Positions 14,531 to 63,688 of a stretch of DNA of 64,000 nucleotides are shown in pieces. The notes beneath the pieces were generated by a model. The model was not told the DNA's origin. It was given only the letters and a program-made list of their open reading frames with translations, and did not search any database. Position numbers and translations under genes: made by a program. This DNA is from Bryopsis sp. KO-2023 (taxonomy: Eukaryota; Chlorophyta; Ulvophyceae; Bryopsidales; Bryopsidaceae): assembly GCA_030272585.1 (NCBI GenBank), contig BSYQ01000014.1, forward strand, positions 496,001-560,000, read 5' to 3'. Within the stretch, counting starts at the first letter, position 1, and every line of letters starts with the position of its first letter.

Positions 14531-15712
14531 ATGGCCGGACAGGACGAGCAACCGCAGATAGGAATGCCGGCCCCAGATCCCTTCGACGTGCAGGGATTGA
14601 GGCAGATGATTTTGGACATGCAGGAAGAGGTCCAGCACCTGAGACACGTAGCAGCCAACGTGAACGTGCAGATGGACGACGCAGCTCGGAACGCAGTGCA
14701 CAACAGGATGGCACAGCAGCAACCTCCCGCAGCTCTGGGCAGAGCTAGGGCGAAAGGCCCTGACATGTGGTATGGTGATCCACATGATGTTCCCCTCAAT
14801 GAGTGGCAAGTCCAGTTGCAGACATACTTTGATGTTACTGCAACCAGGGACAGGGAACAGCAGGTATTAGTGGCTGCAGGATGCTTGAGAGGAGCAGCAG
14901 GCACTTGGTGGAGAGGTCGGTATGAAGCTGCGATGGCAGGACAGCTGAATCTGCCACAGGACGTTCCAGCTTTGGTGACAGCACTCAGACAGCAGTTTGG
15001 TAAAACGAATGAGAACAAAGACTTCAGGCGGGAATGGTCACGTCTGAAGCAGGGACGATCTACTGTTGCTGAGTATGTGCATCAGTTCAGAAGACTTATG
15101 CTGCAGATCAATGACAGCAACGCTGGAGAGCAGCTGTTTCGTTTTGTAGAGGGTCTGAATGACCGTCTGCGAACTAAGGTTGAAATGGAAGATCCTGCAG
15201 ATCTGGAGCGTGCGATAGCACTCGCCGCCACTTGGGAAGGTCCGCTGGAGGCGTACCGCAGAGAGGGACGCAGAGGCCACAGTCCCAGAGGCAGGCGTGA
15301 AGGATCACGCAGAGACAGATCAAAGAGCAGAGGCCGATCTTACAGCAGAGGCCGATCCTACAGCAGAGGAAGATCGCAGAGTCGAGGTCGCAGTGCTGGT
15401 CGTGGCAGAACTGACGCAGATCGTGATAGGTATACACCACACCAATATACACCACAATTAGGGGACCGCATGGAGGTTGATGGCCTCCAGCGTAACCGCG
15501 TGGGTTTTGATGTTGGTAGAAACCGAAGCGACAGTCGCAGTAAAAGCAGAGGACGCAGTGGTAGTCCTCGCAGACAGAGGCAGAACAGAAGATCTGGAGA
15601 GAGTATCTCTGCCAGAAGGAGCAGAATGGATGCAGGTCACTCTGCAGCGAATGTTGATTGTTACAACTGCGGCAAGAAAGGACATTTTGCTGCAGACTGT
15701 CAGGAAAACTGA
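14531..15712 (+). CDS. gag: Gypsy Gag polyprotein
   Basis: This 393-aa frame is the structural protein of the nested gypsy element. It contains a retrotransposon gag core (MWYGDPHDVPLNEWQVQLQT region), a long Arg/Ser-rich basic stretch and a C-terminal CCHC zinc knuckle (CYNCGKKGHFAADC) for RNA binding. It overlaps the start of pol by ~55 bp in a different frame, an arrangement in which this family is known to use frameshifting. A shorter frame at 14152-14748 overlaps its start; whether that is translated is unclear. Confidence 0.85.
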   Translation: MAGQDEQPQIGMPAPDPFDVQGLRQMILDMQEEVQHLRHVAANVNVQMDDAARNAVHNRMAQQQPPAALGRARAKGPDMWYGDPHDVPLNEWQVQLQTYFDVTATRDREQQVLVAAGCLRGAAGTWWRGRYEAAMAGQLNLPQDVPALVTALRQQFGKTNENKDFRREWSRLKQGRSTVAEYVHQFRRLMLQINDSNAGEQLFRFVEGLNDRLRTKVEMEDPADLERAIALAATWEGPLEAYRREGRRGHSPRGRREGSRRDRSKSRGRSYSRGRSYSRGRSQSRGRSAGRGRTDADRDRYTPHQYTPQLGDRMEVDGLQRNRVGFDVGRNRSDSRSKSRGRSGSPRRQRQNRRSGESISARRSRMDAGHSAANVDCYNCGKKGHFAADCQEN

Positions 15713-18700
15713 GGAGGCCAGAGTCTGGAGAGGCTGCTGGCCGGGAAATCCTGGCGGAGGAGGATAGAAGTGGAGTGTGGGAAGGCCGGTGCAGCCCACC
15801 ACACAGAGAGGCTACCAATTGGGGGGTAGCAGGAATTTCAAATCAGAACTCCAAGGTTGGAGAGCCATGCGTAGCCTCAGCCAAGGAGAAGAAGAAGAAG
15901 AAGAAGAAGAAAATGATGGAGAACCTTGCAGGTACAGAGCCATGTGTAGCCATACCTGAAGGGGATCCTGCAGTGTCAGTGTTGAATTTTGCAGGTGGAG
16001 GGCCTTGTGTAGCCACATTTGCAGAATGTTTGGTGAAGGATATAGAGACAACGAAGGAGGGTTGTGGGCTGAGTGAAGCCACAACCACTCTGGTCTCTGA
16101 GGCAGGAGGTGATGAGCCAAGTGAAGCCACACCCAGCCTGCAGGTGATGTCAGGCAGTGCAGGTTTGGGAGGTGTACAGCCTGAACCTGAGCTGCACAAT
16201 GTTACGGAGTGTAAAAGTACTGATGGTGATCTGAGGGCAGACACATCAGATTTTTCAGTGAGAGAGGAGCTTGAACAGGGGAAACTTAGTGCAGATTCCC
16301 TCAAGAATGTTTGTTCAAGTGAACCCCCAGTTTTGAAGTTGAGAGGAGTCCAAGGGGGGACTCAAGGATTGTTGAAGACCACAGGGGCTGTGGCAGGTTG
16401 TTTTGCAAGAATTTTGTTAGATAGTGGTGCAACCGACAATTTTGTTTCGAAAGATTGGTTGCTAGAAAATGACATTCAGGCAAAGACTTCGGAGGTGGTT
16501 ACTGAAGTGCAGTTAGCAGATGGCAAGACTTCAGAGAAGGTAGAAAAAGAACTGCAGGCCAGTGTCAAGATGGGGAGGTTTGTTTCAGAGGAAAAGATGT
16601 ATGCAGTGACACTAGGCAGGTATGATCTGGTGTTAGGTATGTCTTGGCTGAGTAAACACAACCCTATGATAGATTGGCAGAAGAAGAAATTGGTTTTGCA
16701 GACACCTCAGGGAGTAGTCAAACTCAGAATGCAGACAGGTAGAGTAGAGGATTGCAGTACTGAAGATTTGGATATGATGTCCGCCAAAGAGTTTGCTCGG
16801 GCAGCCCGCAAGGGTATGCCGATGTATTTGGTAAATCTTCGGGAAGTTCAGGAGGAACATTTGATTAATAATGTGGAAAGTACTGATGCAGTAAAAGGCA
16901 GTGTGGCAGAAACCTTGTCAGAGGAAGGAAAAGAGGCAGCTGAGTTAGAAAAACAGATCAGAAAGGAGTTTCAGGATTTGTTTAAAGAGGAACTGCCGCA
17001 GGAGTTACCTCCTGACAGGGGTGTGAATCATAAGATTGAGTTGGTGGAAGGTGCAGAACCAGTAAAAAAGGGGCTTTATAGGGCCAGTTTTGCAGAAAGA
17101 GAAGAACTGAAAAAGCAGTTAGCAGAGCTGCTGAAGCAGGGATTTATCAGACCTAGCAAGTCTCCATGGGGTTCGCCGGTTTTGTTTGTTCCTAAGAAAA
17201 ATGGGAAACTTAGGATGTGTGTGGATTTTCGGGCACTTAACAAACTAACGGTGAAAAATAGGTATCCTATCCCGAGGATAGAGGAGTTGCTGGATCAGAT
17301 TCAGGGAGCACGCTGCTTCAGCAAGATTGACCTCTGCTCAGGCTACCATCAGGTGCGGTTGGATCCTGCAGATTGTGAGAAAACGGCCTTCCGCACCAGG
17401 TATGGCCTTTATGAGTATGTTGTTCTTCCTTTTGGGCTGACGAATGCCCCTGCCACTTTTATGAACACAATGAATCATGTGCTGCATGATTTTCTGGACG
17501 TCTTTTGCATCGTTTACTTAGATGACATTTTGATTTTTAGCAAAGATTGGGCAGAACACAAAGTTCATTTGCGGAAAGTGATGCAGAGGTTGAGGGAACA
17601 AAAGTTATATGCATCAGCTTCAAAGTGTGAGATCTGCAGAGATCAAGTTGAGTTTTTGGGGCATGAGTTAAGTGCTGCAGGAGTACAGGTGTTGCAGAGC
17701 AAGGTGCAGGTTATCAGAGATTGGCCACCCTTGACATCAGTGAAGGATCTCAGGTCCTTTCTGGGATTGGCAAACTACTACAGGAGGTTCATGAAGGACT
17801 TCTCTGCCGGAGCCAAGCCTTTGACTGCATTACTCAAAAAGGATGCAGAGTGGAAATGGACTGAGACAGAAGCTGCAGCCATGCAGGATATCAAGGAGGC
17901 ATTGATGTCTGCACCAGTACTATTGGTGCCTGACCCAAGTCTGAAGTTTGAAGTCACCACCGATGCTTCGGACTATGCAATAGGAGCAGTCCTAACTCAG
18001 GACAAGGGACAGGGTCAGCAGCCAGTGGCATTTGAAAGCAGGAAGCTGCAACCTGCAGAACTCAACTATGCTACTCATGAAAAGGAGCTGCTAGCAGTTG
18101 TGCATGCTCTGAAGGTCTGGAGACACTATTTGGATGCACAAGAGTTTGTGGTGCACACCGATCATGCACCCCTCAAGTTTTTGCATACTCAGCCTCACCT
18201 GTCGCAGAGGCAAGCAAGATGGATGGAGACTCTGCAATCTTTCAAGTTCGAGATCAAGTACAGACCAGGCAGAGACAATGTGGTGGCAGATGCTCTGAGC
18301 AGGGCCACACATCAAGTGGAGGAAACAAAGTCTGAAATGAATGCTCAGGCTAGGCTGGAAGTTGCAGAAGGATTCCTGCAACAGGTGCAGACAGCTTATT
18401 CGAAAGATCCACTGTGTCAGCAGTTGATCACTGCAAGATACAGACCTGGACATGTGAAATGGGATGGCCAAAGGCTCTGGAGAAGAATTGGGAATGCTTG
18501 GAAATGGTGGATTCCTGAAGCAGATGGGCTCAGGGAGAAAATACTGCATGACTGCCATGAGTCCCCATTGGCAGGACATTTGGGCAGAAGGAAGACCCTT
18601 GTCAGGGTGCAGTTGCATTATTTCTGGCCTCACATCTCCGAGTCAGTGCACAAGTATGTCCGGAATTGCATTTCATGTCAGAGGAACAAGGCTTCTAATC

Positions 18701-20061
18701 AGAGGCCTTTGGGTAAGCTGCAGCCCCTGCCTATTCCTGATGGCAGGTGGACCAGTGTTTCACTTGACTTTGTAGGGCCTTTACCTAGAACTCGAACTGG
18801 GTCAGATTATTTGTTGGTGGTTGTGGATAGGTTCACAAAAATGATCAGACTTATTCCGACTAAGCAAACGGTTACTGCTGCAGGGGTAGCAGATTTGTTT
18901 TTCCAGAATGTGGTTCGTTTCTTTGGGTTACCTCAAGAAATTGTTTCTGATCGGGATACTCGTTTCACTAGCAATTTTTGGAGGTCTCTTTGGAAGAAGG
19001 CTGGAACAAGATTGGCAATGTCAAGCAGTTATCATCCTGAGACAGATGGTCAGACTGAAAGGGCTAACAGAACAGTGCAGGAAATTCTGCGCAGTTATGT
19101 TGAACCTGCAGGAACAGATTGGGATCAGCACTTGGCAGCTGCTGAGTTTGCTTACAACTCCAGTGTCAATGCTACTACTGGATTCTCCCCCTTCTATTTG
19201 ATGAATGGGCAGAACCCAAGGACTCCTGCAAGTGCTGTGGCTGTGTCAGTCTGCCCAGCAGTGGATGATTGGTGGACTACTTGGCAATCTGATCTGGAAA
19301 AATGCAGACACAATATTGCTGCTGCTCAGGCACGTCAACGCCAGGTGGCGGACGAAACCAGGCGGGGAGGGGGCTTTGAGCCAGGCGAAAAAGTTTTTCT
19401 GGCCACAAAAGACTTACCCTTACCTGCAGTGTTGAGCAGAAAGTTGTCAGCAAAGTACTGTGGACCATTTGAAGTCACTGAGAAGCTCTCTGAAGTTGCA
19501 GTCAGGTTGAGACTGCCGGGTCATTGGAGGATACATGATGTGTTTCATGTGTCCAAGCTCAAACCTGCATTTGAAGATCAGGTGGGCAGCTTTCCAGCAA
19601 GGGAGGCACCCAGGTGGCAACCTGAACCTGAGCTTGTGGATGGCAGAAAGTTGTCAGCAAAGTACTGTGGACCATTTGAAGTCACTGAGAAGCTCTCTGA
19701 AGTTGCAGTCAGGTTGAGACTGCCGGGTCATTGGAGGATACATGATGTGTTTCATGTGTCCAAGCTCAAACCTGCATTTGAAGATCAGGTGGGCAGCTTT
19801 CCAGCAAGGGAGGCACCCAGGTGGCAACCTGAACCTGAGCTTGTGGATGGTCAAGAGGAATATCAGGTGGACAGAATTCTGGCAGACAGAACTGTCAGAG
19901 GCAGGAAGCAGTACCTTGTTCGATGGCAGGGATATGATCAATCTGAGGACACATGGGAACCTGCAGAACATTTGCAGAATGCTCGAGATGTACTACGTGA
20001 CTATCAGCAAAGGAGTGAAGGGACCGCGATGAGGCGACGTCCTAGTCGGAAAGCACAGTAA
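15658..20061 (+). CDS. pol: Gypsy Pol polyprotein with C-terminal chromodomain
   Basis: This is an open frame of up to 1,467 aa. The domains in order are an aspartic protease (LLDSGATDNF), reverse transcriptase (active site YLDDIL), RNase H (TDASDYAIGAVL; HTDHAPLKF), integrase (zinc-binding HHCC region, then the D,D,E core with SDRDTRFTS and YHPETDGQTERAN) and a chromodomain (YLVRWQGYDQSEDTWEPAEH). This order places it in the chromovirus branch of Ty3/gypsy. A 207-bp in-frame tandem duplication lies between the integrase and the chromodomain. The frame is otherwise open throughout. Confidence 0.93.
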   Translation: MLQLRQERTFCCRLSGKLRRPESGEAAGREILAEEDRSGVWEGRCSPPHREATNWGVAGISNQNSKVGEPCVASAKEKKKKKKKKMMENLAGTEPCVAIPEGDPAVSVLNFAGGGPCVATFAECLVKDIETTKEGCGLSEATTTLVSEAGGDEPSEATPSLQVMSGSAGLGGVQPEPELHNVTECKSTDGDLRADTSDFSVREELEQGKLSADSLKNVCSSEPPVLKLRGVQGGTQGLLKTTGAVAGCFARILLDSGATDNFVSKDWLLENDIQAKTSEVVTEVQLADGKTSEKVEKELQASVKMGRFVSEEKMYAVTLGRYDLVLGMSWLSKHNPMIDWQKKKLVLQTPQGVVKLRMQTGRVEDCSTEDLDMMSAKEFARAARKGMPMYLVNLREVQEEHLINNVESTDAVKGSVAETLSEEGKEAAELEKQIRKEFQDLFKEELPQELPPDRGVNHKIELVEGAEPVKKGLYRASFAEREELKKQLAELLKQGFIRPSKSPWGSPVLFVPKKNGKLRMCVDFRALNKLTVKNRYPIPRIEELLDQIQGARCFSKIDLCSGYHQVRLDPADCEKTAFRTRYGLYEYVVLPFGLTNAPATFMNTMNHVLHDFLDVFCIVYLDDILIFSKDWAEHKVHLRKVMQRLREQKLYASASKCEICRDQVEFLGHELSAAGVQVLQSKVQVIRDWPPLTSVKDLRSFLGLANYYRRFMKDFSAGAKPLTALLKKDAEWKWTETEAAAMQDIKEALMSAPVLLVPDPSLKFEVTTDASDYAIGAVLTQDKGQGQQPVAFESRKLQPAELNYATHEKELLAVVHALKVWRHYLDAQEFVVHTDHAPLKFLHTQPHLSQRQARWMETLQSFKFEIKYRPGRDNVVADALSRATHQVEETKSEMNAQARLEVAEGFLQQVQTAYSKDPLCQQLITARYRPGHVKWDGQRLWRRIGNAWKWWIPEADGLREKILHDCHESPLAGHLGRRKTLVRVQLHYFWPHISESVHKYVRNCISCQRNKASNQRPLGKLQPLPIPDGRWTSVSLDFVGPLPRTRTGSDYLLVVVDRFTKMIRLIPTKQTVTAAGVADLFFQNVVRFFGLPQEIVSDRDTRFTSNFWRSLWKKAGTRLAMSSSYHPETDGQTERANRTVQEILRSYVEPAGTDWDQHLAAAEFAYNSSVNATTGFSPFYLMNGQNPRTPASAVAVSVCPAVDDWWTTWQSDLEKCRHNIAAAQARQRQVADETRRGGGFEPGEKVFLATKDLPLPAVLSRKLSAKYCGPFEVTEKLSEVAVRLRLPGHWRIHDVFHVSKLKPAFEDQVGSFPAREAPRWQPEPELVDGRKLSAKYCGPFEVTEKLSEVAVRLRLPGHWRIHDVFHVSKLKPAFEDQVGSFPAREAPRWQPEPELVDGQEEYQVDRILADRTVRGRKQYLVRWQGYDQSEDTWEPAEHLQNARDVLRDYQQRSEGTAMRRRPSRKAQ

Positions 20062-25536: not shown

Positions 25537-28500
25537 ATGGACAATTTTGTGCTGGGGTTGGGAAAACATATTCACACCGGGAAGCCCTTGGAGCCTAGCT
25601 TCCTGATGCAAATTATCCAAAAATGCCGAACCAGGGAGGAAACAGACATGTGGGTCAATGCGAATGACATTGGCTGTTGCATCCAACCTGCCGACGGGTT
25701 TCAAAACTCCATAAACCACCTGCACACGTTGAGGATGAACTGCCCCTTCTACAAAGGCATGATTTATATTGATTGGGGGTTGGAGCAACCAAGGAAGCAA
25801 GCACATTTCAAAGGGAGTTTTGGTGGGAGGTTAAAATTTCACTTGGGGGAAAAGGGTGTGCCTCAGTTGGTGAAGAGAAACACTGTTTTCACGCTGAAGG
25901 ACAATGAGAATATCAAGGTGGGTTCCCCGGCGTAATTAATGCAGTCGAAATGTTACATGTAGTGAAATGACCCCAAGTTTGCCACACCCCAACTGACACC
26001 AACCAAAATGCTGGCTTGCCCAAGTGGGGGTGAAAGAAATCAGTCAGTCAGTCAGTCAGTCACCTGCCTCGTTGCAAAGAAACTCTCTTGATCTGACTCT
26101 GGAACCCTTTTTTTTCTTTTTGACGATGTTGGGTAAAACAAACTAAAAATGGTGGATTTGGGATGAATTTTCAGTACACAGTCATCTGGGCGAACCTGAT
26201 GGAGGATGCTGACCCAGCAGCAGCCAAGGAATTCCGGGTGTCCAGCATTTCCCAGGAAAAACCTGGCCCCAGGTATTTTCTAGGAGACTATTCCCATGAT
26301 ATTTTTTGGGACGTGGAAAAAAAGCTTTCAATTCGTCAACAGAAAATGTATTTATATGTAAAAAGCCCCACTGGGACTCCAAACATGACAAAAACTAACA
26401 AAAAGTTTCTGTCCCCTCCTAATTCACAAGCCTTGTTTTTTATCGAACAGAACAAGTTTTTTCATTCTGTCCAAATATCAGCATTCTAAAAATGTTCGCG
26501 CTCCCATGAACCTTTCTGTTGCTGAATAGGTCATTCAGATGGGTTTTTCACAGCCGAACTGCTAGCCCGTTTGGAAAGGAATCAGGCAAACACGTTGCCT
26601 TGGTGGAATGGCTCTACGATCGCAACGACATAGAGTCGTTTTGCCTAAAAATGGATGCGCAGTTAGAGTCCTTCGAAGAGGTGAAAATCCTATCCAAGAA
26701 AATCAGATGAATAGAGAATGGCTTGATTTTGTGTCAGCCTGGCTCTTACACACCAACATATGCCGTTGCTTGGGATCCAGGGTCATGTTGTTTTTATTTA
26801 GTAATTCAATTTATTTTTTATTTTTTTTTGGGGGGGGGTTTCAGTTTGGCCTTGGACAAAACACGTCAGAGAAAAAAAGGAAAGAATGTATCATAAGTAT
26901 GCATGTGTGTGTGTGGCAGATAATAGGGCTGATTTCAGGATACCTGACATTGGAGGTGTGCGCTGAGGACCATGTGCAAGTCAAAGGCTCCAAAAGTCAG
27001 TTCGATGATTCCAAAATGGAGCTGTGGATAACTTTGCTGAACCAGATGCTGGGTGAGGGCCTGGTGCGGCTTGTCCTGAAGGAAACCAGGGTGATGAAGC
27101 CGGACTTGCACCTATACATGGTCCTTGCCAAGGAAAACGTTTCAGAGGGAAGCACCGAGGTGCCAGTGGAGGCCGAAACAGGGCAGGACTCTTTTGAGGA
27201 TTTCGAGTTTGGTTCGCTGGAGCCCAATTTCTCAGACGATGATGTTTTCGCCAGTTTTTCTGGCAATCCTTTGTATGATCCTGTACGAGAAGAGATCAAT
27301 GCTTTAATGCCCCCCCACAGCGACGAACCGGGGACATCAGACAGATTGAGGTTAGTCTTTGTCATTCCCGCAGAATCACCATGCAGGTCTGACATGAAGC
27401 CCTGGTTCCATGCTCAAGACAAACGACGGGCTGTCTTCTCTGGATAGCCTATGTTTCAACAAAAGCAATTTTGCAGTTTTCGAAATGAACTTGGTTGGAG
27501 GAAACTCAGTCTCTTCTTGTTGAGTCGGTGGGTCCATCAGTCATACAGAAAACAGTCAGCTTGATGTTGGATTGGGCATGCATCACCACATGCGTACAAT
27601 TGTTTGCTGGTATAGAAAGTGCAAATATCACTGCAGTACAAATTTCCATAGCTGTTTTGAGGAAATGGTTTGGACATTGTGCACAGTACAACCGAGATCT
27701 ACAATAATTCGGAAACCCAGCAAATGCCTGGTTATGACTATGCTGGCAATATCACCCTCGCTGGGAGGATCACAGCCAAAGAGGTTTCCATCAGACAGGA
27801 TGGCCATCTGTTTCTCGGAGGGAATGCCGACATTTTGCAGCTGTCTGACATGAACGAGAAGGAAAACATCGAACAGATGGGGAGAGATTCCTACCAAAAA
27901 ATAATGAAGCTGCAAACCTACTTTTTTTCGTACAAGAACAGTTCGAATAAAAGAGCAGGATTCATCGCCCAACAGGTACGATAATTAAAACACCAAAAGG
28001 CATCAACTAGTTTTTTTCCTGCTTGTTTTTGTTTTTTTGGGAAGGGCTTTGGCTTGGGAAAGATCCTTTTTTTGTTCCATTTTTTTTGTCAATTATGAAG
28101 GATTGCACATCTATGTCAGGATTTCAAACAAGCAATAGCTCATATATACATACATTTCCTGTTTTTCTTTTTTGTAAAACAAAACATCAAATACAAAACC
28201 CTTTAACTTTTGACAGTGCGTGAGACTCTATGAAGTTGTTTTTTTGCACCCTGAATATCCAAAATGAGCAACAATTGCTGTAGTTTTTAGTGGTGTGCAT
28301 TCTAAAATAAAAGTTCAACTTGGAACATTTTTTTTAATAAATTGAAACAGTTGTTCAACCATGGCAATTCAGTCGTTGGTACTGATTCTTGCGTTGATAA
28401 AAATCCCTGACCAGGTGAAGAAGCACATCGAGGAGGCGGTTACTCAAGATGAAAATGGTGTGCACTACGTTTCAGTGGGGACACTGATCCCGTTCATCGT

Positions 28501-31500
28501 CCAAGCTCTGCAGGCGCAAGACAAATCCATCGATAAGCATGTCAGTGGGGAAGTTCACCATGCGCTTTTATGCGCTTTTCTGTGCTTTTCTAAGATGGAT
28601 ATAGCATCCCCCAACTCTATGCACTATATATGTTGACACTTGCAATGTTGATCGGTGATTCCCAGCGAATCCGAAAGAAACCCACTGTTTTGGGAGCTGG
28701 TATCTTTGATGTACAACTCATTTGACAGTCTCATCATTCCTGGGCAGTTCTGATTGCAAAGACAGTTTGGCCTCCAAACCTGGCCAGGTGCAGAGCTGGA
28801 TTTAACCCCCCTCCTCTTGTTCTGTTGTCTGACAATTTTTTTTTTCAACTGGATTTCTAGGAAGGGATGATCATGCTCATTCTCGGAGCTTTACTGGATT
28901 TGTTGAAAAAATGGGAAAGAGAGTTTGGAGGTCAAGAACCCGAATCAGACGAAACTGAGGATTCCAGCGAAGGGGGCGACAAGGATAGAAAAGACTCGGG
29001 GTGGGTGTGTCTTGATTGAATAAAGAGCGTCGAATGAGCTGTGCAATACTCTTATATATATGAGAGTATATATTACCCCCCCCCCCCGCATCAACTAAAT
29101 AAGAAAGATGTGCAGATCCCCCTTCCTCCCAAACAATTCCTTTTCTTTTGTGAAAGGTGTGTTCGCCACATATGGTACAAAAGAAAATTCTTCGATTTTC
29201 CCTGATAGATCCATGTTGATTCATTAATCCTGTATTTTTTCAGCTATATCCTTCAGGCTCCAGTTCCCCACACAGATCCCTGCTTGCAGAAACTCAGATG
29301 AAAACAGTACGTTTCGTAGAGGAGATCCCAGTCATGCCATGGTTGGGAATCTAGTTTTTGGAAAAGAATAAACAGAAAACTGAAAAGAGCAACAGCTGAT
29401 GGGTGCCCAATTTGACGTGTACATTTGCTTTGATACAGAAAGGAAGAGTCAGAGGAGGAGGACTTTGAAAAGGAGTTTTTCTGCAAAGAGTTGACTCACC
29501 ACGATAAGGTTTGCTGCCTCATAAGGGAACTGGAGGAGAAAGATGATCAGCATAAATATTTCCTCAAGCTTGTAAGCAGTATGGATGCAGAGGTGTTGTG
29601 GCAAGCGAAAGAGGCAGCAAAAAAATCAACATCACTGAAGGACGATGGTACACCCAGAAGCAAAGGGGGGGAATTCATTAAGGTATGTAATAAATTTAAG
29701 AGTTTTTTTGATGCACAACTCTGAAAAGACAGGACCTACTGTTTTTCTTTTGGATCGAAACTGCTCCTTTAAAAAAGCAGGCGGTTATTCCAGATACCAG
29801 GTGCATGCAGTGTTCCATAGTTTTGATCCTCCATGGTTGATGGTTCCAAACCAGTAAATGGAGTTTGTCGACAACAGTCCTATATATATGTTATATATAA
29901 ACATATAACAGTCCTAGTTATAGTTATATATATAACTATATACATAGTTATATGTCTGTCTATAACAGTCTGTTCTGGAGGAACAGCTCTTTCCCATACT
30001 TTAACGCAATCTGACACAACCCCTGGAGCATTTGAGTCCAATAACTAGTTCTGCAAACAAAATTGGCTCCAGTGTATCCTATCCATTCAAGTGCTGTATT
30101 TTTTTTTTTCTGGTAGCTGGTGAAGCTGCATAAAAAAAAAATGGAGGTCAGGAAAACCATGATCACGTCACCTGAGGTGGCGGTGGAGCTGAGGTCCTAC
30201 CAGCAGCAAGCTGTGAAAGTTGCCACAGAAAATTGGGACCCCAAAATCAAGCAGGCTGGATCCAAGAATTTTTGTTATGTAGCTCCCACCGGGAGCGGCA
30301 AAACAAGAATATTTATTGAGTGCATCAGGTACCAACTGATCACCTCTTCTCCATAGAACAAAAAAACTGAATCGCTTCGTCCCTGTTTCCAAAAAAGAAC
30401 AAAAACTGTCGAAAGATGTTTTGGAAAGAAGAAAGAGTTGGGAAAAAGAAATGGACGAAGTTGGGGAGTGCCCTAGTGCACTACATTGTGTGTGTGTGTG
30501 TGTGTGTGTTCGGTATCTTTCTTACAAGCGTTTTGACCTTTCGGTATATCACACCCCATTGATCGTGTCCTCTGTATCTGAATCCCCAAGTATCCACGTA
30601 CAACTGTTCACTCTCTAATTCTGTATCAGCTGGCAGTATTCTCCTCCACCCCGAATCGAACCCTAGACCTACCGGCCTTCCACTCCAAACTTTCAGACAA
30701 TTTAACCGTCTTACCCAGGACGTGTGTGTGTGTGAGTAAATATCTGGCTTTACTTTGTTCCTTTTTTTTTTGTAGGAATGGATTGGTGAAATTCTCCGGT
30801 TTGAAAGCGCTGGTGATCATTCCAAATATCGCACTCTCAAAACAGCATGAGGGTAGCTTTATGATGGGTGGCTTTGGGGAAGCCGGATGGAGGGTGGAAT
30901 CCTACTCATCGGAGCATTCCGTGAATCGGACATCATGGCCAACGGAACTGGAAAAGCAATCGGTCATGATAATGACGGCCCAAATCTTCCTGAATCTTTT
31001 GGAGGATGGGGCCGCCCACATGGAGCAGTTACACCTCATAGTAAGTGGAGAAAGAACAGGCACCGATACAGTGGGTATTGAACATCGTTCAGGCCTCGAC
31101 GAAATCACTGATCGTTGTCCCCAAGGGTTTGGTAGAAGATGTGTTTGAATTGTATTGTCTGCTTCAACGAGCGACAAAATTGATATTTATGGTCTTACCC
31201 TTTCAACACATCCAAAGGAAGGGAAAACTGTGGATCCACTCTTCAAGATATGCTGTCTGTTCTGGCCAGCAGAAAGGGTCACTCACTCCATCCATACCCT
31301 TACTTTTTCCTGCAAATGCATTACATTACATGAGGCTTTCAGTCAAGTGTGTCTTGTACCCTGTGCAGAGTGATGTGAACCCATCACTCAAACCCTAATG
31401 CCTCCAGTCTGACGCAATCAATCGACTCGGGACATGATTTGTCGATTCTTTTTGTGTTGGCCGGTAGATTTTGGATGAGGTGCACCATGCACGATCACGG

Positions 31501-34500
31501 AGTCCTTACAAAAAAATAATGGAGCATTACAATAAGGCCAAGGCACGAAACAAAGCTTATGTACCAAAGGTGTGGCACATTCATTTCCCCCGAGGCTGCT
31601 AACCAAAACATCAAAAAAGTCAGATGTTTCTAATGAAGCAACGAAAAGTGAGGATTTCCCCTGGTTTTAAGGTGGAAACTCGATTTTTTTTGGGGGGAAC
31701 CGGTCATTGCAACGGGAAATTGCCTGGAAAAAAAAAATGTTTCTGGAAAAGAGCTGCTGAGCTGCTGAAATGACATGCTGAGCACCGTTCACTGAAGTTT
31801 TTTTGTTTTCTGTGAAGGTGTTGGGCTTCTCAGCCAGTCCTGCCAATCACGACACAAGGGTGAGCTACATGGCTTGACTTGTTGATGTCCATTGCCGGTT
31901 TTCAGTGGGGTGTTCTGTTTCATTTTTTCATTTTTTGGGGGGGTTTGGGGGGGAATGTATTTCATTCCCCCAAATAAAATAAACTGAAATAAACTGTATA
32001 AAATGTAAATGTATTAATAAAATGTTCAGGTCTTGGTTGTCGAATTGCACCAAGGGTTCACTTCGGAACATGAATGTTTTTTTTTTTTTTTAATATTTCA
32101 AAAGTGGGGAGTTTTTAACCACCACGTTAAAAATCTTGCCAGGCGGGGACATACAAAAAATTAGTCGACCTCCGAGAGCTGCTGGATGCAAAATTGGTGC
32201 TGATTCCAGATGACCACCACGAAATTCAAAAACACGTGCCAACTCCAGACGAACGTACCATTTTCATAGAGCCTCGCCAGCAAGATGAGGATTTTGACAG
32301 GGGAATGCAAACTTACAAAGCTCAAGCTATTGATCGGCTGACTGCTCACTTGCGAAGATTCATAGCAGGTGAAACACAGAACCACCAGCCCCGGCACCCC
32401 ATAGTAAAAAGAATTTTAATATGAAACAGAAAATCCTTCCCTTGGGGAACGCCACAGTAGATATTTCGGTGGAAATGTGCTATGCATCCACTGGAATTGG
32501 TGTTATATCACCTCAATCTTTTCATTTCTTTCTGTTTTTTCTGTGTTTTTTTTTCTTTTTTTTTTGGGGGGGGGTATTGGATATGCCTTCTTTCCAACCA
32601 TCGTGTTTAATTTGGCTTTTTCTTTTTTCAGACGAAAACGCGGGGCCGACAGTCGCAAAAAAGTTTGTCGCATTTTTCAGCGAGAATAATGGACGCTCAG
32701 CAGCTGAGACCTTCCTAGATAATCACCCAGAGTTGAGCAACCTCAGCAGATTGGAAATGGCTGAGCTGCTTGCTTCTGCCCAGCTCCTTCAGGAATGCGA
32801 AAATTCCCTCCAGGTTTTGAAGGAGTTTGGATATGAGCGGGCCCTGGCGCATTGCGCACAAAAGTGTATCGAAATCATGGAAAGTTTTAACCTGAATCTG
32901 GAGGGGATGAATGTCAACATCTCAAGCCATGGGTTTTTCAAGCAGTTGGTGTTTCTGGTGAGAAAAAAAATTATCGCTGTTGGGGACATCTTAACTGCCA
33001 TTCAACTTGGGCATATAATTCTTTTTTTGCGATTTTTTTTTTTTTTGCATCTCCAGTGGAACCACCCCTTTATTTTTGCAGTCAAATCTGATCTTCCTCA
33101 GCGAAACTGTTTGCTCCCAAAATCCAAAACTTGGATATTTGGGTGAAAGATGGTTTTCCGAATTTCATCACACTGTCTTGGAACTCGTCTGACTAACCAA
33201 TTTAATTTTTTTTCAACAGCTTTGCAACACAGCACCAGTAAACGACAGCCGTTTCGTGACATCTGCACTCGGTCAAGACGTGCTCTGCCATGGGAAGTCC
33301 TTCCCTAAATTTGTCGAGTTGATCCATTTGCTCGAGACGGAGTATGTCAAAGAAAAGGAGTTTTTCCACGGAATGATATTTATCGAGACGAGGGCAGGGG
33401 TGCACCATCTTTCTCACATGCTCCGGTCAGACCCCAGGACGAGGTCTATCCAGTTCATCGAATTCACTGGGCATGGCTGCTCAAAGAAATCGGACTATGC
33501 GAATGTGAAAGGTGACAGGAAAATTCATGTTTTGAAAGGGAGGGAGGGGGGAAATTGCTGAGAAAGCTAGGAGCTGCTCCATGTCCACTTTGGGGTTTCA
33601 AAAGCGCATATTTTTGAAAAAATGTTCTGCCATTCCACTCAAAACGTCCAGAGGCCCTGGATTTTGGCTCTGTATACATTCACCTTTTTTGGATACAAAA
33701 TTTCCACGTAACCAGTTGCTTTCAGAATGTCAGTCCAGCATGTCAGAATTCTCGTCGGTGGAGTTGCAACCTAAAACACACTTCCATGGAAGAATGGCTC
33801 CGTAGATTTGCCTCATGCAAATAATAACATCTCAATATGACAAATGAAAAACAAAAATTCTCTTCCCCCTCCCCCCCCCCCCCCAAAAAAAAGATAGTTC
33901 ACATAGCAACTTTTGACCTTTCACTGATATTCTTAAGTATTCATTTTTTTTTTCAAATGTGTTACATCGAGGCAAACCGCCCCATGTAGCCCGTCCACTA
34001 TACAAATGAGTGATATGGGCCCTCCACTCTAATAATAATTGTCTGTACTACCCCTGTCCCGAATTTACTCCCAAAAACAACCTGCTAGAATAAAAATCAC
34101 CCTTCTTCTGATTCAGCACGTAAATTGTACATACGAACACAAAATTCCACTAGTACCCTTAACCCAATTTCCGAAGCAAACATCCCCTCCTGCCAAATCA
34201 GGGGTTCCGATGAAAAAAGTTGAACCACCGCGATACTATCCCGCCTGCAATCCTCGAGCCCCGGACAATCCCATAGTAAATGGTTCCTAGATCCCAACAC
34301 TAGATCCCATCATTATTATCAGTTCTTTGTTTTATTGTTTTGTTGTCCATTTTCAGTAGTTAGTATATTGACTTCATATATTTCATTCATTTTTTTTTTT
34401 CATTTTTTTTTCAACTCCAGGGATGACGGGGAGAATGCAGGAGAGACAGCTCCGTTCATTCCGGCAACAAGGCAGGAAAATCCTGGTGGCGACCCAAGCG

Positions 34501-34731
34501 GCCGAAGAGGGTCTGGATATCGTCGACTGTGAATTTGTCATCAGGTACACGGCTCCCAAAACTGGAATCCAGAGGGTGCAGTCAAAAGGCAGGACCAGGA
34601 AAAAAGGGAGTGTTTATGTGTCCCTGATCACGAAAAAGTCGTTGGATGAAAAAATGGAGGCAAAGTCGAAGGCGGAGGAGACGAATCTGCAGTGGGTCAT
34701 GAAGAAGATCGACTCCATTATAATTGAGTAG
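25537..34731 (+). CDS. Fusion of a peptidase-S74 autoproteolytic domain with a Dicer/RIG-I-type DExH helicase
   Basis: Sixteen exons, all frame-consistent: 25537-25917, 26175-26272, 26530-26680, 26920-27350, 27687-27975, 28415-28540, 28861-29000, 29439-29682, 30117-30328, 30776-31040, 31468-31569, 31818-31859, 32143-32368, 32632-32957, 33220-33511, 34421-34731; 1,211 aa. Residues 1-350 are unrecognised. Residues ~370-490 form an S74/intramolecular-chaperone domain (LSDMNEKENI with Ser407/Lys412; GFIAQQ|VKKHIEEAVTQDENG; LIPFIVQALQ). An acidic linker and a helical segment (~493-620) follow, then the helicase: Walker A APTGSGKT (676-683), motif II ILDEVHHA, motif III LGFSASPA, a helical insert (~903-1010), then FTGHG, ATQAAEEGLDI and motif VI VQSKGRTR. 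The protein stops soon after the helicase, with no RNase III or PAZ domain. Known S74 domains trimerise and cut themselves before the Ser, so the helicase half could be released. Its partner and substrate are unknown. Confidence 0.85.
30630..30722 (-). repeat. tRNA-like (tRNA-derived SINE?) sequence in a helicase-gene intron
   Basis: Read on the minus strand, this intron segment has a GGTAAGACGGTTAAATTG block like a tRNA A-box/D-arm and, about 40 bases on, GGGTTCGATTCGG, a near-consensus pol III B-box. I cannot pair a clean acceptor stem, so a functional tRNA is unlikely; a tRNA pseudogene or SINE head fits better. Confidence 0.4.
34097..34300 (-). repeat. Possible LINE ORF2 C-terminal remnant in the last helicase intron
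   Basis: A minus-strand frame reads NHLLWDCPGLEDCRRDSI, like the H-x-LL-x-C-P tail found after the reverse transcriptase in many LINEs. It is isolated and short and no reverse transcriptase core is visible, so this is tentative. Confidence 0.3.
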
Positions 34732-35694: not shown

Positions 35695-38600
35695 CTAGGT
35701 GAAGGTAATTTGCCTCAGCTCCTCTTTCAAGGAAGCCAGAATTTCTTTGAATGTTGGCCTTGTGGCTGGCTCTCTATCCCACGAACGTTGTATGAGATCC
35801 CGCAGGAAGTGTGGGCAGTCATCAGGTATCGGAAGTCGCTTTCCCTGAACTCCCACCGCATAAATGATCTGCAAACCACAAAAAAACAACTCAGAAACAA
35901 GCCAACACACAATCAGCAACACACAGGTGTGTTCACGAACTTCCTGATTGTTGATTGCTCCCAACTTCAGCGGGGAATTTTACGTGAAGAACGATTGACA
36001 CAAACTTTTCCTTCCGCTTGCTGGACCTTATACTTCAGCCAGCGAAAAAAACGAATGGTTCCGAAGGAAAGCTCAAGAAAATTGAGATAAAGGTGTGCCT
36101 TTTGCACGCAAAACTCGGCGGGTTGCGGAGACATCCTACCTGCATCGGATTGTCGTATTCGGCCCAAGGAGCCAGCCCTGTGATGCTCTCCCACATCATA
36201 ACTGCAAAGGAGAATACGTCCACTTTTTCAGTCAGTGCCTGGCCTTCGAACATCTCTGGAGCCATGTAGGCTGGCGTTCCAGCAGTCACGTTTTTCGTGG
36301 TCATGAATGTGCTTTCCTTGAATTTTGCAATCCCAAAGTCGCACACTTTCGCTCTCCCCTGATCATCTATCAAAACGTTTTGGGGCTTCAGGTCTCGATG
36401 CACAACGGTAGGGTGCAAATACGCCATTGCACTCGAAATGTCAATCCCCAGGCTGAGAACCTGTGCGTAATTACAAACTTCAGTAAAAAAAACAAGAAAA
36501 ACAAACAAACTTAAGCATTGAGGCCGTGGGGAATGCCTGAGACAAGAAAATTGTTTCACCTCGGAGTAAGTCAGAGGGTTGGCTTTACCCTTCTCCCTGT
36601 ACAACAGCGTCGCCAAAGATCCATCGGCCAGCTCCTCAAGAATACAAACGCGTGGAGGTACAAGGCACGCTCCGTAGAAACAAATGATGTTGGGGTGCTG
36701 GAGTCTGCTGAGAACCTGGATTTCGGATTTCAAACTCTCAAGCTCCTTCTCCCCACAGTTTCCAGCATCGACCACTGATACCATTTTGACGGCCACTTTT
36801 TTCGATCTCCACCATCCTTGGTACACGCTTCCAAATGCTCCAGCGCCAATTTTCGTTCCCAAAACAACATCTTTCGCAAAATCAACATCAAAAACACCCT
36901 ACAAAACACAACTGGGTAAATCCGGGGACAAAAAGAAACTGAGCAACGCGTTTTGAAGTGCCAGAACTTGAGCATTTCAGCAGCACCTTACCTGGCTCTT
37001 GTTTCTTTTGCTGACGATAGGCAATCCATTGGTCTTTACATGTCCATAGCTTTCAACATCTCCATCTAGGACTGTTGTCTGTATTGCAAGCGAACCGCTT
37101 TCGCTGTCTGTCACGGTGAATTTCGGCCTCTTCCATGACAAGTTCTCCAATTCCCCCTCTTGCAACTCTGTCGATGTTGCAGACACCGATGGATGGAGGG
37201 AAAGCTTGAGGCCACGTACTTCAGATGGATATTTCAGTACCTCCCCTTTCGCAGAAACGATCATAGGCTTCTTTGAATGCTTCCCTCTCTTCTTGGAAAA
37301 CCAGAAAGCACCTAGGGAAAGGATACAAATCCCAACAACGACCGCTCCAGCCCCAATAAGCATGTTTTCGATGCTAAAGCGGGAGCCTTTCACGTTGGCA
37401 CGATCGGGGCGTCTACTCTCTTGAAGATCTGGTGGCGAAGCGTCCAGTTTGGGTGGCTTTTGTGGTAAAGGACTGGAATCGTTTACAGGGGGGCTCTCTG
37501 AAACAAAAAAAAAAGAGCCGTCATGTTTTGCACTTTGGTTACATAACAAAACATTTCTTGATACAATGCAAGTTATCACTTTGATGCTTGTAATTCTTTA
37601 AAAGAAAATTATCATAGCTCCTATTTAGTTCCTGAACGTTCTAGTTCCACAGCTATAGATGCGGTAAAAAAAACCTTGAAATTACCTTGATCCAGAGGTG
37701 GTCGAAACTCGTGCTCTTCAGGAGTTTTCTTATCACCAGTATCAAGTAACACCGTGTTGATTGGTGGTGTTGTTTCCTCCTCCTTGTCTGTTTCTTCTTC
37801 AGGGCCCATTGCCAACGGTGCAGACTCACACTGCTGCAAATCGTTCGAGTCTTCCTCGCCAGCGACTCTGTCCCCGCAACAAAATATCGACACACATGAA
37901 GGTGAACTAAGAAGCGAACTATCTTTTATCCCAAGTCCTGTGAACGCCGCCACAGGGGAGCTGCACATAGGAACTTTACACACTCCGTAGCCCACAGGTG
38001 TGCAGCGCATTCCGTTCAAGCTCACGTCCCTGATGTCCAGTGTGTTCACTGCGTCGAAAGATTCGTTCATCGCAGCGAGAGTGAAATCTGTTCTGGACCC
38101 GTTAGCTCTTATCAACGCGTTTTCTTGGGTGTTCACAACCCTGACAGGTGCTCCATAAGCTGCAGCAATCCACAGGAACCTCAGGATTCTCTGATAGAGC
38201 AATAAACAACAACGGACCCAGCGAATGTAAGGACTGCCTCCTTACCGTTGCCAGGGCTCAGCAAAATAGCTCCCTTGGTGCTGTCAACAGACATCTCCCC
38301 GAAATCTTCGAACGTCCACACGACTTGCCAGGTTATGACATCATCCTCTAAGTTGTTCACAAGGGAGAAGCGGGCTCCCAGTGTGCTGTCTGCGACTCCA
38401 GCAATTTCATAGAGCACCTCCATTTCGCACATTGCAGGTGCCGCCAAAACATCCCATGCAATCTTCGACTCCCAAGGGGTGACGGCGCATTGTGGATTGT
38501 TGCACTCGAAGAAATCTGCAGACCAGAGAATATATGAACTACTGCCATAAACGGTAAAACCATGGCTCGGGGTGTGTTGTAAGACACAGAAACCAGCTAC

Positions 38601-38773
38601 CAGCGCAAAAGAACCTGAACAGACGGAGGCAGCTATCTCGCAAGACTGGTCGCACACAAGTGCACGGAGTACCAGCCACGATTCGTTCGAGTTTCCCTAC
38701 CATTTTGCCAGGCTGAGATTGTGCTCGCCAGCTGCAAGCATACCACCAGGAAGAGAGCTACATTTTCGCCCAT
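35695..38773 (-). CDS. Receptor-like Ser/Thr kinase with CBM2-like ectodomain
   Basis: Seven exons, all frame-consistent: 38773-38701, 38515-38246, 38159-37686, 37497-36992, 36898-36560, 36460-36140, 35868-35695; 718 aa. Residues 1-~21 form a signal peptide (MGENVALFLVVCLQLASTIS). Residues ~54-167 resemble a family-2 cellulose-binding module: Cys54, ITWQVVWTFEDF, VRVVNTQENALIRANGSRTD and the closing VSLNGMRC (Cys167). An acidic Pro/Glu-rich stalk follows, then a membrane span (~318-339) with basic KKRGKHSKK after it. The kinase domain starts near 455: glycine loop IGAGAFGSV (459-), Lys479 in VAVK, HRDLKPQN (Asp577), DFG (595) and GTPAYMAPE. LKPQN and overall layout fit TKL-type Ser/Thr kinases, and all key catalytic residues are present. 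It probably signals from the cell surface in response to a glycan. Confidence 0.88.
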
Positions 38774-52361: not shown

Positions 52362-55008
52362 GGGTGCCGCCGTTCGGTTTTCCTGAGGGTGGGGACTTGG
52401 AATGTTCGGGCGGCGGCTGATTGGAAGGGTTGTTTTTTCGAAGATGTTTTAGATCAGGTGGATATTTTATTTTTACAAGAGATTGGGGATGTTTCTTTTT
52501 ATGATCGGTTTTCTGATTTTTCTGTTTTGTTACGGTCGCGTCAGGGGGTACGTCGACGGTCTGGGGGTGTTGGGGTTATGGTACGGAAGTCTTTGGATGC
52601 GTCAGTTTCGTTTTTGGATGTGCAAGACGCCAGCAGTTCGATTGTTGGGGTTCGTTGTTTTATTGGTCCTTCTGAGTTGATTTGTTTTGGTTGCTACCTG
52701 CCTTCTGCAGGCTCTGATTTTCGCGATTTGGATGTGTGGGACTTTCTTTCGGAGGAAATTTCTGGTTTGGGTACGCTTGGAGATTCCCGTTTTGTTTTGG
52801 TGCTGGGTGATTTCAACGCTAGCACTGCGGTTTCCAGTGATGGACCGGACGTTCCTGGATTGCCAGTTCGTGTTTCTAGTGATTCTCGTGGTGTTGACGC
52901 CAATGGTCGGCTTTTGCTTCGTTTGTGTTCAGAAAATGATCTCAGGATTTTCAATGGTCGTGTTTCGGGCGACGCTCAGGGCTTGCCCACTTTTCGTTTG
53001 GGCTCTACGGGTGGTTTGCAGTTGATTGATTACGTTTTGGGATCGCCGGGGCTGTTTGCGTTTGCTGATTCTTTGCGTGTGTGTCCGGAGACGATTGCAT
53101 CGGATCACATGCCTGTTGTTCTGAGTTTGTCCTTTCGTCAGGAGTGGAATCGGCAGGTAAATGCAGGGCGTTTCCGTTTGGGGGCTCGAGAGCAGCAACA
53201 GTTGGCGTCGTTTCTTTCCGTTCACAGAGATTCGTTGCTGGATGAGATCGAAGATGCGCCATCGGTGGATGCGATGGGCTCTGCGGTCTCGGATGTTGTG
53301 GAGCATCGTTTGGAGTGGTTTCCTCCTTCTCGACCACGACGACGTCTTGCGCGACAGCCGTGGTATTCAGCGGCGTGTGTGCTGGCCTACAGAGCGTATC
53401 GTGCTGCATGGCGTGCACATCGTTGTCGGCGTTCGGACGTTGCGTTGGCTCAATCGGCACGTAATCTCCGGAATCGGTATTATGCGGTGTTGAGGCGGGC
53501 GCGCAGAGAGTTTGATCGTTCTTATGGCGACAGGATGCAGGCTTTGTTCACGAGTGATTCTCGGGCGTTTCATCGTGCTTTGTTTCCGAAGGGCCAGCGA
53601 GCGTCTGATGGTGTGGATGTGGCCGTCTGGGAGCGTTACTTTGCGGACTTCTTTGCGGAACGTGGTTTGGCTGGGGATGATCCGGAACCTCGGGTTTCGA
53701 TCCAAAAAGATTGCTTGTCTCATCCGTCGTTGGTGGAACCTTTTACGGAATTCGAGGTGGCGGCGGCTTTGGGGCGTTTGCATGTGCGGACTTGTGGGGG
53801 CGCGGATTCGTGGACTCCTGCCTTTTTCAAGGGACAAGGCTTGGCGGAAGCTTGGCGGCCGCTGCTGGTGGCCATGTTCAACAGGTGCCTTGCAGAGCGT
53901 CGCGTGCCGCGGCAGTGGCTGCTGGGCGTCATCAGGCCTATCTGGAAGCGGCGTGGTTCCAAGGGGGACCCGTTCCGGTACCGACCCATTATGCTTTGTA
54001 CCTTGTGGTACAAAGTGTTTGTGTACTTGTTGATGGAGCGGCTGGCGCCTCTTCTGGATCCGATTCGACACCTCTCCCAAGCTGGCTTCAGGCGTGGTTG
54101 CGAGACGACGACGTGGATTTTGGTGACTTGGGGTTTGTTGTACAAGGCGCGGCGGTCTGGTGCTTTGTTGATTCTGTTATCGCTGGATTTGGAGAAGGCG
54201 TACGATAGCGTTAGCCATTCGCGATTGTGGCTGCACTTGCGGAGGTTGGGCCTGGCTGATCCCTTTTTTGTTGTACTGACGTTCATGTACGAGAACTCGA
54301 CGGCGGTGGTTCGTGGGACGAAGGGGTGCACGGCGCCGTTTGGAATCGGCAGGGGCGTTCGTCAGGGCTGTCCGTTCAGTCCGCTGCTTTTCACGTTATA
54401 TCATGACAACTTGCCGCGACTGCTGGAGGGGGCGCAGGTTAGCCACATCGTTCTGGGTTTGGCGATCATTGTGGCGCTCATCTTTGCGGACGACACGCTG
54501 GTGCCGTGCTCGTCTGTGGAGGATGTCTCGGCTGTTGGTGATGTGCTGGGGCAGTATGAGCACGATTGGGGAGTGAAGACGAATCTGGAGAAGACGGAAG
54601 GGATGGTGGTGAATGCGCGGGGGCTCACGACTGTGTCGCTGCAATCGACGATGAAATATTTGGGAGTTTTCTTCAAGGATGGTCCGGGCAACGTGAACGT
54701 GTTTGGAAATCATATCGACAGGACTCTGCAAAACGGACAGGCGGCGGTGGGGCGCTTGTTGGCTCGATTCGGGGATCTGGGGCTTCGCGATCCGAAGACG
54801 CTTCTGTCTCTGTTTCGCATGTATGTTTTGGGGAAGGTTCAGTATGCGGCGCCAGTTTGGTGCTTCTTCTTGACTCAGGCGCACAAGGATGCGTTCAACG
54901 GTTTGCAGATTCGTTTTCTGAAGCGGGTGTTGCGGCTTCCCGTGAGGACGCTTCGCAATGTGGTGTATTTGGAGATGGGTGCTCTGCCGATCCTCTACTA
55001 CTTCAACA

Positions 55009-55210
55009 AGAAACAGAAACAGAAACAGAAATTACATGTTGCGAAGGGCCAATCCGCCCTGTTGCAACCACACACAATGTCTCAGCCATGTCCAAAAGTC
55101 CACAGAAGATGAAGTCTCCAATAAAACCCCAGTACAATCAACGAGAGACCCATCAAGGAAACAAGGAAACAAGGATTACAAGTTCCATCACTAAGGAATC
55201 AATGTACAAA
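55009..55210 (-). mobile_element. 5'-truncated LINE A copy inserted in LINE A ORF2
   Basis: On the minus strand it equals the last ~170 bases of LINE A (compare 55935-56105), ending in the same hairpin and (TTTCTG)n tail, seen on the plus strand as AAACAGAAACAGAAACAG at 55009. It is itself split by a ~31-bp family-B tail at about 55155-55186. Confidence 0.8.
55155..55186 (-). mobile_element. Minute LINE B tail insertion (~31 bp)
   Basis: AAGGAAACAAGGAAACAAGG then ATTACAAGTTC is the extreme 3' end of family B. It interrupts the LINE A fragment between GAGACCCATC and CATCACTAAGG, with CCATC on both sides as a probable target repeat. Confidence 0.65.
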
Positions 55211-56105: not shown

Positions 56106-56636
56106 AATGGGGCGCACCATACCAAACAGCCAGCTCCGAGGAACACGTCTCTCGCGAAGGCATCGATTAAAGAGAGCGAGCAGCAACGGAAGCCAAGCCT
56201 CCTGCAACCCCTGTCCCTTGAAGAACGCCGGCGTCCACGAATCCGCACCAGCACACGTCCCCAGTTTCAACTTTCTCACCGCCTGCTTGACCTCCACGTC
56301 AGTAAAAGGCGTCACAAGGTCGTCACGTCCCAACACATCGCTCCTGATATCTACATGAGGCTCTGGATCATCCGTATCAAGAGAGGAGGCCTCGAAAAAC
56401 TCCGTAAAGTGCTTGTGCCAATCGTCCAAAGTTACAGCATCAGAAGCACGCTTCTGCCTCGGAAACAAAGTGGAGTGAAAACGTTTGGAATCCTCCTTGA
56501 AGAGGCGCTGCATATAGTCACCATATCCCAGGTCGAACACAAAAGCCCTGTGATCCGAAATGTGCAACGGCGGATCGGGCTCCACAAACAAAGAAACGTC
56601 CCAATCCGACAAAATAGACTCACTGCCCACGACATA
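56106..56636 (-). pseudogene. Middle fragment of an older LINE B copy (B'), ORF2
   Basis: It encodes the same residues as the ORF2 at 59650-58715 (GSESILSDWDVS; GYGDYMQRLFKEDSKRF; AGADSWTPAFFKGQGLQEAW) but lacks the block between the endonuclease SDHRA and the FDLGYGDY segment, so it is deleted internally. LINE A interrupts it on the left, after the ATTTAC of the MVRPIY codons, and the full-length B copy interrupts it on the right at CGACATA. Its remainder reappears at 63689. Confidence 0.8.
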
Positions 56637-57001
56637 CAAGGATACAAGGATTACAAGTTGCGTAGGGCAAACCGCCCTGTTGCAACGACATACATGAGTG
56701 AATCGTGTCCCAACGTTCGAAGCAAGGCAAAAGCCTCTGAATGTAATCAACTCCTAAATGAACAAAATCTCCTAAAACAAAAAAGTTCCAACGTCTCTGA
56801 AACCAGAAATCCCCAATCGAAACTCAAGAAAGAGCCCAAACGTCAAAACATAAAACCAAACACAAGAATCGGTCGCTTCCAACTCAGAAACCCGGAGCGA
56901 GCGCCCAACAAACAAAGCAAACAACGAAGAACACCAACTTCCCCATCAAACGAAACATCCAGAACAACGAAAAACAAACACCACCAGTCGCTACAAGCCC
57001 A

Positions 57002-62712: not shown

Positions 62713-63033
62713 GTTCCACACCACAGTACTACAGGGCGACACCCGTGTAACAGGTGCGACACCCCTGAGCGAACGTGTGACAGGTACCCACAATGCCCAG
62801 TCCAATCGTGACAACCCCCTGCAGTGGCTGTCACTAGCGTGATGAACCGTGAAAGGACAGGTCAGGCGCTCGAATCCCAGTGATCCCACAACACAGCACA
62901 ACACCTCCCACAGCAGCTCCCACAGGCCCAAGCGAAAAAGGAATGATCCAGAAGGGAAATCAGCGCCAGAGAAGGCGAAAACAGCGAGCCAGAGGCGAGC
63001 AGAGCCTAAGGGAAGCGATCTGAGCCGAAGGAG

Positions 63034-63685: not shown

Positions 63686-63688
63686 ATC

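Follow-up and report, generated by a model that had tools for sequence, protein, structure and literature searches.

To our knowledge, the self-cutting S74/ICA domain has two settings, i.e., virus-type fibers and MYRF-type transcription factors. In MYRF (PMC3742443), the ICA domain trimerizes the chain and then cuts it to yield two independent oligomers, the DNA-binding domain being part of the N-terminal oligomer, while its C-terminal counterpart remains in the ER membrane. The cut in MyRF lies between P586 and S587, the S587A and K592A variants remain uncut, and S587 and K592 are equivalent to S911 and K916 of endoNF, with further residues shaping the cut in MyRF or endoNF (PMC8326128). The corresponding dyad of MrfA is composed of S767 and K772, both of which are needed for the cut (PMC3828593).

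The window analyzed here is a stretch of 64,000 nucleotides (G000:C14:496001-560000) of the 91 Mb genome of the green alga Bryopsis sp. KO-2023. Judged from its sequence, it contains a real and unusual combination of two known families in this alga, namely an S74/ICA domain, whose self-cutting center looks intact, followed by a helicase of the Dicer/RIG-I group.

Gene model and surroundings

The coding region (25537..34731, +) was rebuilt independently as a manual join of sixteen exons, with all fifteen introns being GT-AG, which yielded 3,636 nt, or 1,211 codons plus stop, in an unbroken frame. Its translation is identical, over all 1,211 residues, to the public nr protein BSKO_13324, and the initial annotation, which had proposed sixteen exons and 1,211 codons without a frame break, is thereby borne out. 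The borders proposed for the S74 exons (27687-27975 and 28415-28540) and for the linker exons (28861-29000 and 29439-29682) proved exact, and a Pfam search of the joined protein returned Peptidase_S74, ResIII, DEAD and Helicase_C, all above cut-off. Neither AATAAA nor TGTAA is present within 600 nt 3' of 34731.

Coding status was assessed by codon-usage log-ratios trained on exons 9-16, with 500 random 300-nt intron pieces serving as the null. Each of exons 1-8 scored positive in its true frame (0.079 to 0.462), and in exon 7 one alternative frame, which contains stops, outscored the true frame (0.328 vs 0.227). Exons 1-4 (25537-25917, 26175-26272, 26530-26680 and 26920-27350; 25537..27350, +), which encode the N-terminal 353 residues, look coding, since their pooled score of 0.204 exceeds that of every intron piece (mean -0.302, maximum -0.037, n=500).

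Searches with this N-terminal module returned no relatives. The best match outside BSKO_13324 in the alga's own genome reached only E 0.058, a protein search returned the query alone among 2,605 candidates, and Pfam gave no match for residues 1-353 at E <= 1, nor for exons 1 and 4 when these were searched separately. The result for residues 1-353 includes the NDT80-type DNA-binding domain, a remote relative of which could be missed at this threshold. A profile comparison of residues 1-353 with the N-terminus of the Dunaliella salina helicase DUNSADRAFT_5829 (P0004) was empty, while an AF2 model of residues 1-649, generated from a single sequence without alignment, reached a pLDDT of 35 and was discarded. 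A candidate N-terminal kinship to a second Bryopsis helicase, BSKO_01324 (P0003), was rejected, as its profile score was 13.3, while 20 shuffled P0003 sequences scored as high as 22.0.

The same window contains several other features, those resembling protein families being assigned by eye. A 1,467-residue open reading frame at 15658-20061 (+) resembles a Ty3/gypsy polyprotein with a chromodomain-like tail, and kinase-like exons at 35695-38696 (-) lie on the opposite strand, heading towards the helicase gene. Two long open reading frames at 52362-55112 (+) and 57002-60286 (-) resemble LINE-type endonuclease/reverse transcriptases; together with two arms of 937 nt that are 100% complementary (56634-57570 and 60490-61426), they fit a swing in AT skew. 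A tandem array at 63029-63688 consists of 33 copies of a 20-nt unit with 99% matches.

The S74/ICA domain

The S74/ICA domain spans residues 362-514, approximately, within which Pfam places Peptidase_S74 at 407-460 with 39.3 bits (cut-off 22). Exon 5 (27687..27975, +) encodes a beta-stalk-like stretch, the first S74 part and the cleavage dyad, as deduced from alignment and profile, and exon 6 (28415..28540, +) encodes the second S74 part and the start of the C-terminal helix, as deduced from the join, the AF2 model and comparison with a second copy on contig C11. A profile made of 22 viral S74 domains only gave scores of 62.7 bits for BSKO_13324 and 67.5 bits for the C11 copy, whereas none of 200 shuffles of BSKO_13324 scored above 4.9.

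Ser407, Asp408 and Lys412 do not vary in any of the 25 rows of one alignment (two algal, P0011 and 22 viral) or of the 52 rows of another (one algal and 51 viral), the agreement among viral rows being partly built in because one of the six fetching patterns held the dyad motif. The PDB chains 6f45, 8jov and 3gud, which were found by profile, possess a Ser with a Lys five residues later, an agreement that is free of this pattern bias, and in the profile alignment the MYRF chain 7dc3 retains the Lys and carries Ala at the Ser position. This profile ranked the PDB chains in the order 6f45 (1.2e-16), 8jov, 7dc3 (4.7e-11), 3gud and 8hqz; it was used in place of a PDB search with the S74 region as a lone sequence, which had found nothing better than E 0.44. 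By these alignments and the MyRF/MrfA dyad rule, the codons for Ser407 to Lys412 (27844..27861, +) are predicted to specify an intact-looking self-cleavage dyad, with the Lys five residues after the Ser and the predicted cut before Ser407.

An AF2 model of residues 362-516, based on 52 alignment rows, has a mean pLDDT of 80, the means over blocks of ten residues being 85-95 from residue 412 onwards. Among the best 50 of 112 Foldseek matches at E <= 10, three have E <= 0.001, all of which are MyRF ICA chains, the best being 7dc3 (E 5.2e-06, TM about 0.5); ranks 4-10 are occupied by 3gud, 4uw8 and 3gw6, all intramolecular chaperone structures, and rank 11 by a ribosomal protein. The TM values of 0.50-0.60 and rmsd of at least 7 A against the MyRF chains perhaps arise because a monomer model was set against stalked trimer chains. 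The predicted model contains an ICA fold with its C-terminal helix. This modeled helix (471-514), which we take to be an extended coiled coil, crosses the exon 6/7 junction, and the most hydrophobic 15-residue stretch of the protein (493-507, at the start of exon 7) is modeled as part of it.

Linker, second copy and helicase half

The S74 domain is connected to the helicase by exon 7 (28861..29000, +), which is predicted to continue the S74 C-terminal helix and then encodes an acidic linker, and by exon 8 (29439..29682, +), a linker without a known domain. Both are retained in the second copy. The genome search, whose counts are lower bounds, returned two S74 matches, i.e., that of BSKO_13324 and one at C11:424077, which is followed by the second S74 part, both linker exons and the helicase exons in the same order as in BSKO_13324. 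This second locus (G000:C11:423920-438967) has a 7 kb gap inside the helicase.

Exons 5-10 have equal phases at their start and end in both copies, and those of 289, 126 and 265 nt are equal in length, while the others differ by 15, 45 and 18 nt, all multiples of three. As the comparison of locus against locus gave many low-complexity matches, exon-by-exon matches alone were used. Introns 5-9 align between the copies over 3-16% of their length in the window, compared to 63-96% for the exons, and four of the five introns still outscore 30 shuffles, indicating that some intron likeness is left. The S74 stretches of the two copies are 71% identical, with the dyad kept in both, and exon 14 is 58% identical. 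The pN/pS between the copies is 0.33 for S74, 0.42 for exon 7, 0.47 for exon 8, 0.44 for exons 9-10, 0.46 for exon 14 and 0.26 for exons 15-16, with bootstrap values of 1 or above in two of 500 replicates for exon 7 and none of 500 for exon 8. The linker is thus under purifying selection and has evolved as coding sequence, like the neighboring exons. On this comparison, the S74-helicase fusion predates the BSKO_13324 copy.

The C11 locus itself is, to judge from its sequence, a damaged or remodeled copy. Its exon 8 contains two stop codons, and its public model, BSKO_11733, starts at 431085, within the helicase region, and omits S74; this model joins the C-terminal half of the helicase to an F5/8C (galactose-binding) exon at 438482-438967. 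Open frames on the opposite strand lie ~1 kb upstream of the C11 S74. Window exons 1-4 have no match in the 30 kb examined at C11; the sole evidence that places them in the same gene is consequently their frame, their codon usage and the public model. The phase shared at the start of exon 5 implies that the C11 copy once had, or still has, an exon ahead of S74. The fusion is thus intact in one gene of one species, with one damaged relative.

These data also bear on whether gene prediction, in which merging errors are common, has fused two neighboring genes, the first, for an S74 protein, reaching as far as exon 7 or 8, and the second, for a helicase, beginning in exon 8 or 9. In-frame Met codons do occur in exons 7, 8 and 9 of the window, and the stop at which a read-through of exon 7 would end is overlapped by an AATAAA at 29019, so that the sequence leaves room for such a boundary, and the public C11 model also begins later, without S74. 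Against this, both linker exons are kept in C11 in the same phases and under purifying selection, and exons 6-9 of C11 are devoid of an in-frame Met, so that a separate helicase start would there have to lie elsewhere. Moreover, the modeled S74 helix runs on into exon 7, and S74 precedes a helicase of the same kind in both of the two genomic occurrences found. We therefore consider two merged genes very unlikely. The joining of S74 and helicase in one gene, as initially annotated, is confirmed as an observation, and it is very probable, from the sequence comparisons, that both belong to one gene, which would be read as a single transcript.

The copy on C11 is equally relevant to the suggestion of a viral or transposon insertion, in which the S74 exons would be what a polinton-like or giant virus recently left next to a host helicase. 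For polinton-like viruses, S74 fibers are reported to be ubiquitous across most eukaryote groups, and the window holds the retroelement-like open reading frames (identified by eye) described above. A recent insertion is nevertheless highly improbable, as the S74 region is split by an intron, is in frame with the helicase and has a paralog with conserved exon structure and a pN/pS of 0.33; a pattern scan of viral contigs with BSKO_13324, which finds close relatives only, confirmed no relative. An ancient viral origin of the S74 part is possible.

The helicase starts in exon 9 (30117..30328, +), which carries Walker A (APTGSGKT) at 30282-30305. Exons 10-15 (30776-31040, 31468-31569 with DEVHH, 31818-31859, 32143-32368, 32632-32957 and 33220-33511; 30776..33511, +) encode the helicase core and the stretch between its halves, as located by Pfam and PDB matches, and exon 16 (34421..34731, +) encodes Helicase_C with motifs V and VI and the stop at 34729-34731. 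Pfam matches are ResIII at 643-821 (77.9 bits, cut-off 22.5), DEAD at 648-822 (61.7 bits, cut-off 26) and Helicase_C at 1062-1168 (47.8 bits, cut-off 23.5). SF2 motifs, i.e., Walker A, motif II (DEVHH) and motif VI, are present, and a PDB search with the exact protein returned AncD1D2, plant Dicer homolog 1, LGP2, MDA5 and RIG-I as the nearest solved structures by sequence. Residues 643-1168 are assigned, by these matches, to a DExH helicase of the Dicer/RIG-I group. No Pfam match to PAZ, RNase III, CARD or the RIG-I C-terminal domain (PF11648) was found in BSKO_13324, which ends 43 residues past Helicase_C.

In a helicase tree of nine rows, from which P0007 was left out and in which C11 was represented only in part, the BSKO_13324 helicase groups with the C11 copy (100/100) and then with the green-algal P0003 and P0004 (97/97). 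This four-member algal clade sits with a snail RIG-I-like protein, apart from four Dicers; the placement with the snail protein is unsure, because the program warns of long branches.

Genome searches returned four matches to RNase III, of which two lie on C5 and two on C16, the C16 pair being close to helicase exons of this group, as well as 27 Piwi matches, counted exon by exon, and a Dicer/Argonaute system is therefore probably present in this alga. Searches of the genome for NDT80 and for the RIG-I C-terminal domain gave no match, but carry no weight, as the control genomes gave none either. Further helicase exons of the same group occur on C1, C4, C5, C8 and C16, which looks like an expanded Dicer/RIG-I-type family. 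PADLOC matches were set aside, as they look like generic helicase similarity.

Proposed mechanism and comparison with known systems

The protein would be organized as an N-terminal orphan module (1-353), a short beta-stalk-like stretch with S74/ICA (about 362-514), an acidic linker and a helicase (about 640-1211). By analogy with phage fibers and MYRF, S74 would fold as a homotrimer, bringing three chains together, and each chain would be cut between Leu406 and Ser407, leaving two products, both of them probably trimeric, namely an N-terminal piece of 406 residues and an S74-helicase of 805 residues. Family membership suggests that the helicase acts on double-stranded RNA, for which trimerization would raise its avidity, and its role may lie in virus or transposon surveillance, or beside the alga's Dicer/Argonaute system. 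As a whole, this proposal, in which S74 both trimerizes and cuts the chain to leave an N-terminal trimer and a trimeric S74-helicase, is reasonably likely and is the one that we favor.

The cut is the element of the proposal on which a simpler view differs. S74 might act in the same gene only as a trimerization or folding clamp, with the cut absent or without a role and the full-length trimer being the working form. The helicase, being on the S74 side, would be trimeric either way, and the conservation of the linker and of the C-terminal helix fits a clamp; on the other hand, the two algal copies, 71% identical in their S74 stretches, have both retained the dyad Ser407-Lys412, without which MyRF is not cut. 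We regard a clamp without a functional cut as unlikely.

The initial annotation had envisaged a membrane- or complex-tethered sensor whose helicase is freed by self-cleavage. Of this idea the self-cleaving part is supported by the intact-looking dyad, while the membrane tether is not, as no membrane segment was found by hydropathy: no 19-residue mean reached 1.6, the usual mark for a membrane segment, and the maximum (1.53) lies inside the helicase, in a scan of 19-residue means conducted in place of a dedicated membrane predictor. The release of the helicase had to be abandoned, given that a cut before Ser407 would free the N-terminal 406 residues and the helicase would stay on the S74 side. 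MYRF does act by release from a membrane (PMC3742443), which is the precedent for such a sensor, but with neither a membrane segment nor the helicase on the released side, a membrane-held sensor of this kind is scarcely credible. A more speculative extension of the favored proposal, which we consider quite unlikely, is that an immune helicase took over a viral-fiber-type domain, so that S74 would assemble three RNA-sensing helicases and release an N-terminal effector trimer; the host S74 could then mix with viral chains as a decoy, if the alga's polinton-like or giant viruses carry S74 fibers.

Protein searches were performed against 5.77 billion sequences and require shared five-residue words within length limits, such that distant or short relatives would be missed. 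Residues 360-1211 returned ten proteins at E <= 0.001, including the query, from 7,997 candidates scored, and by their listed Pfam domains the query is the only one of these ten with S74 and helicase together. With residues 340-640, the search yielded the query and a single S74 protein (E 0.049) from 3,674 candidates. The literature search, which covered few subscription journals, found no description of an S74-helicase fusion or of this alga's helicases, and little on green-algal RNA sensing of this kind. Within these limits, no second S74-helicase came to light. If the proposal is correct, BSKO_13324 would represent a further setting of the ICA domain, and, among those encountered in our searches, the only one in which the retained side carries an enzyme; such a protein would, in addition, show how a green alga can trimerize a helicase of the Dicer/RIG-I type in the absence of CARDs.

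Its closest helicase relatives, BSKO_01324 of Bryopsis and DUNSADRAFT_5829 of D. salina, belong to the same helicase group, with identities to BSKO_13324 of 34% and about 31%, respectively, across the part that matches; they differ from it in having no S74 match and no detectable N-terminal likeness. With RIG-I-like receptors and Dicers, BSKO_13324 shares the helicase core of the duplex-RNA-activated SF2 ATPases. It differs from both in carrying S74 in front, from the former in that it has no CARD or PF11648 match, and from Dicer in that it has no PAZ or RNase III match. The fibers and spikes of phages and polinton-like viruses possess the same S74 domain with the same dyad, but in these fibers S74 is C-terminal, or nearly so, and is removed by the cut, whereas in BSKO_13324 about 700 residues follow, including the whole helicase. 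MYRF and MrfA resemble BSKO_13324 in being eukaryotic and in having an internal S74/ICA domain with a Ser-Lys dyad and a C-terminal helix; MyRF is the best match by predicted fold and the third by sequence profile, behind two phage fibers. BSKO_13324 differs from them in that no NDT80-type match or membrane segment was found, and in that a helicase, rather than a membrane anchor, follows the ICA domain. Finally, the known working part of MYRF is N-terminal (PMC3742443), the reverse of the arrangement in BSKO_13324, where the helicase lies on the S74 side.
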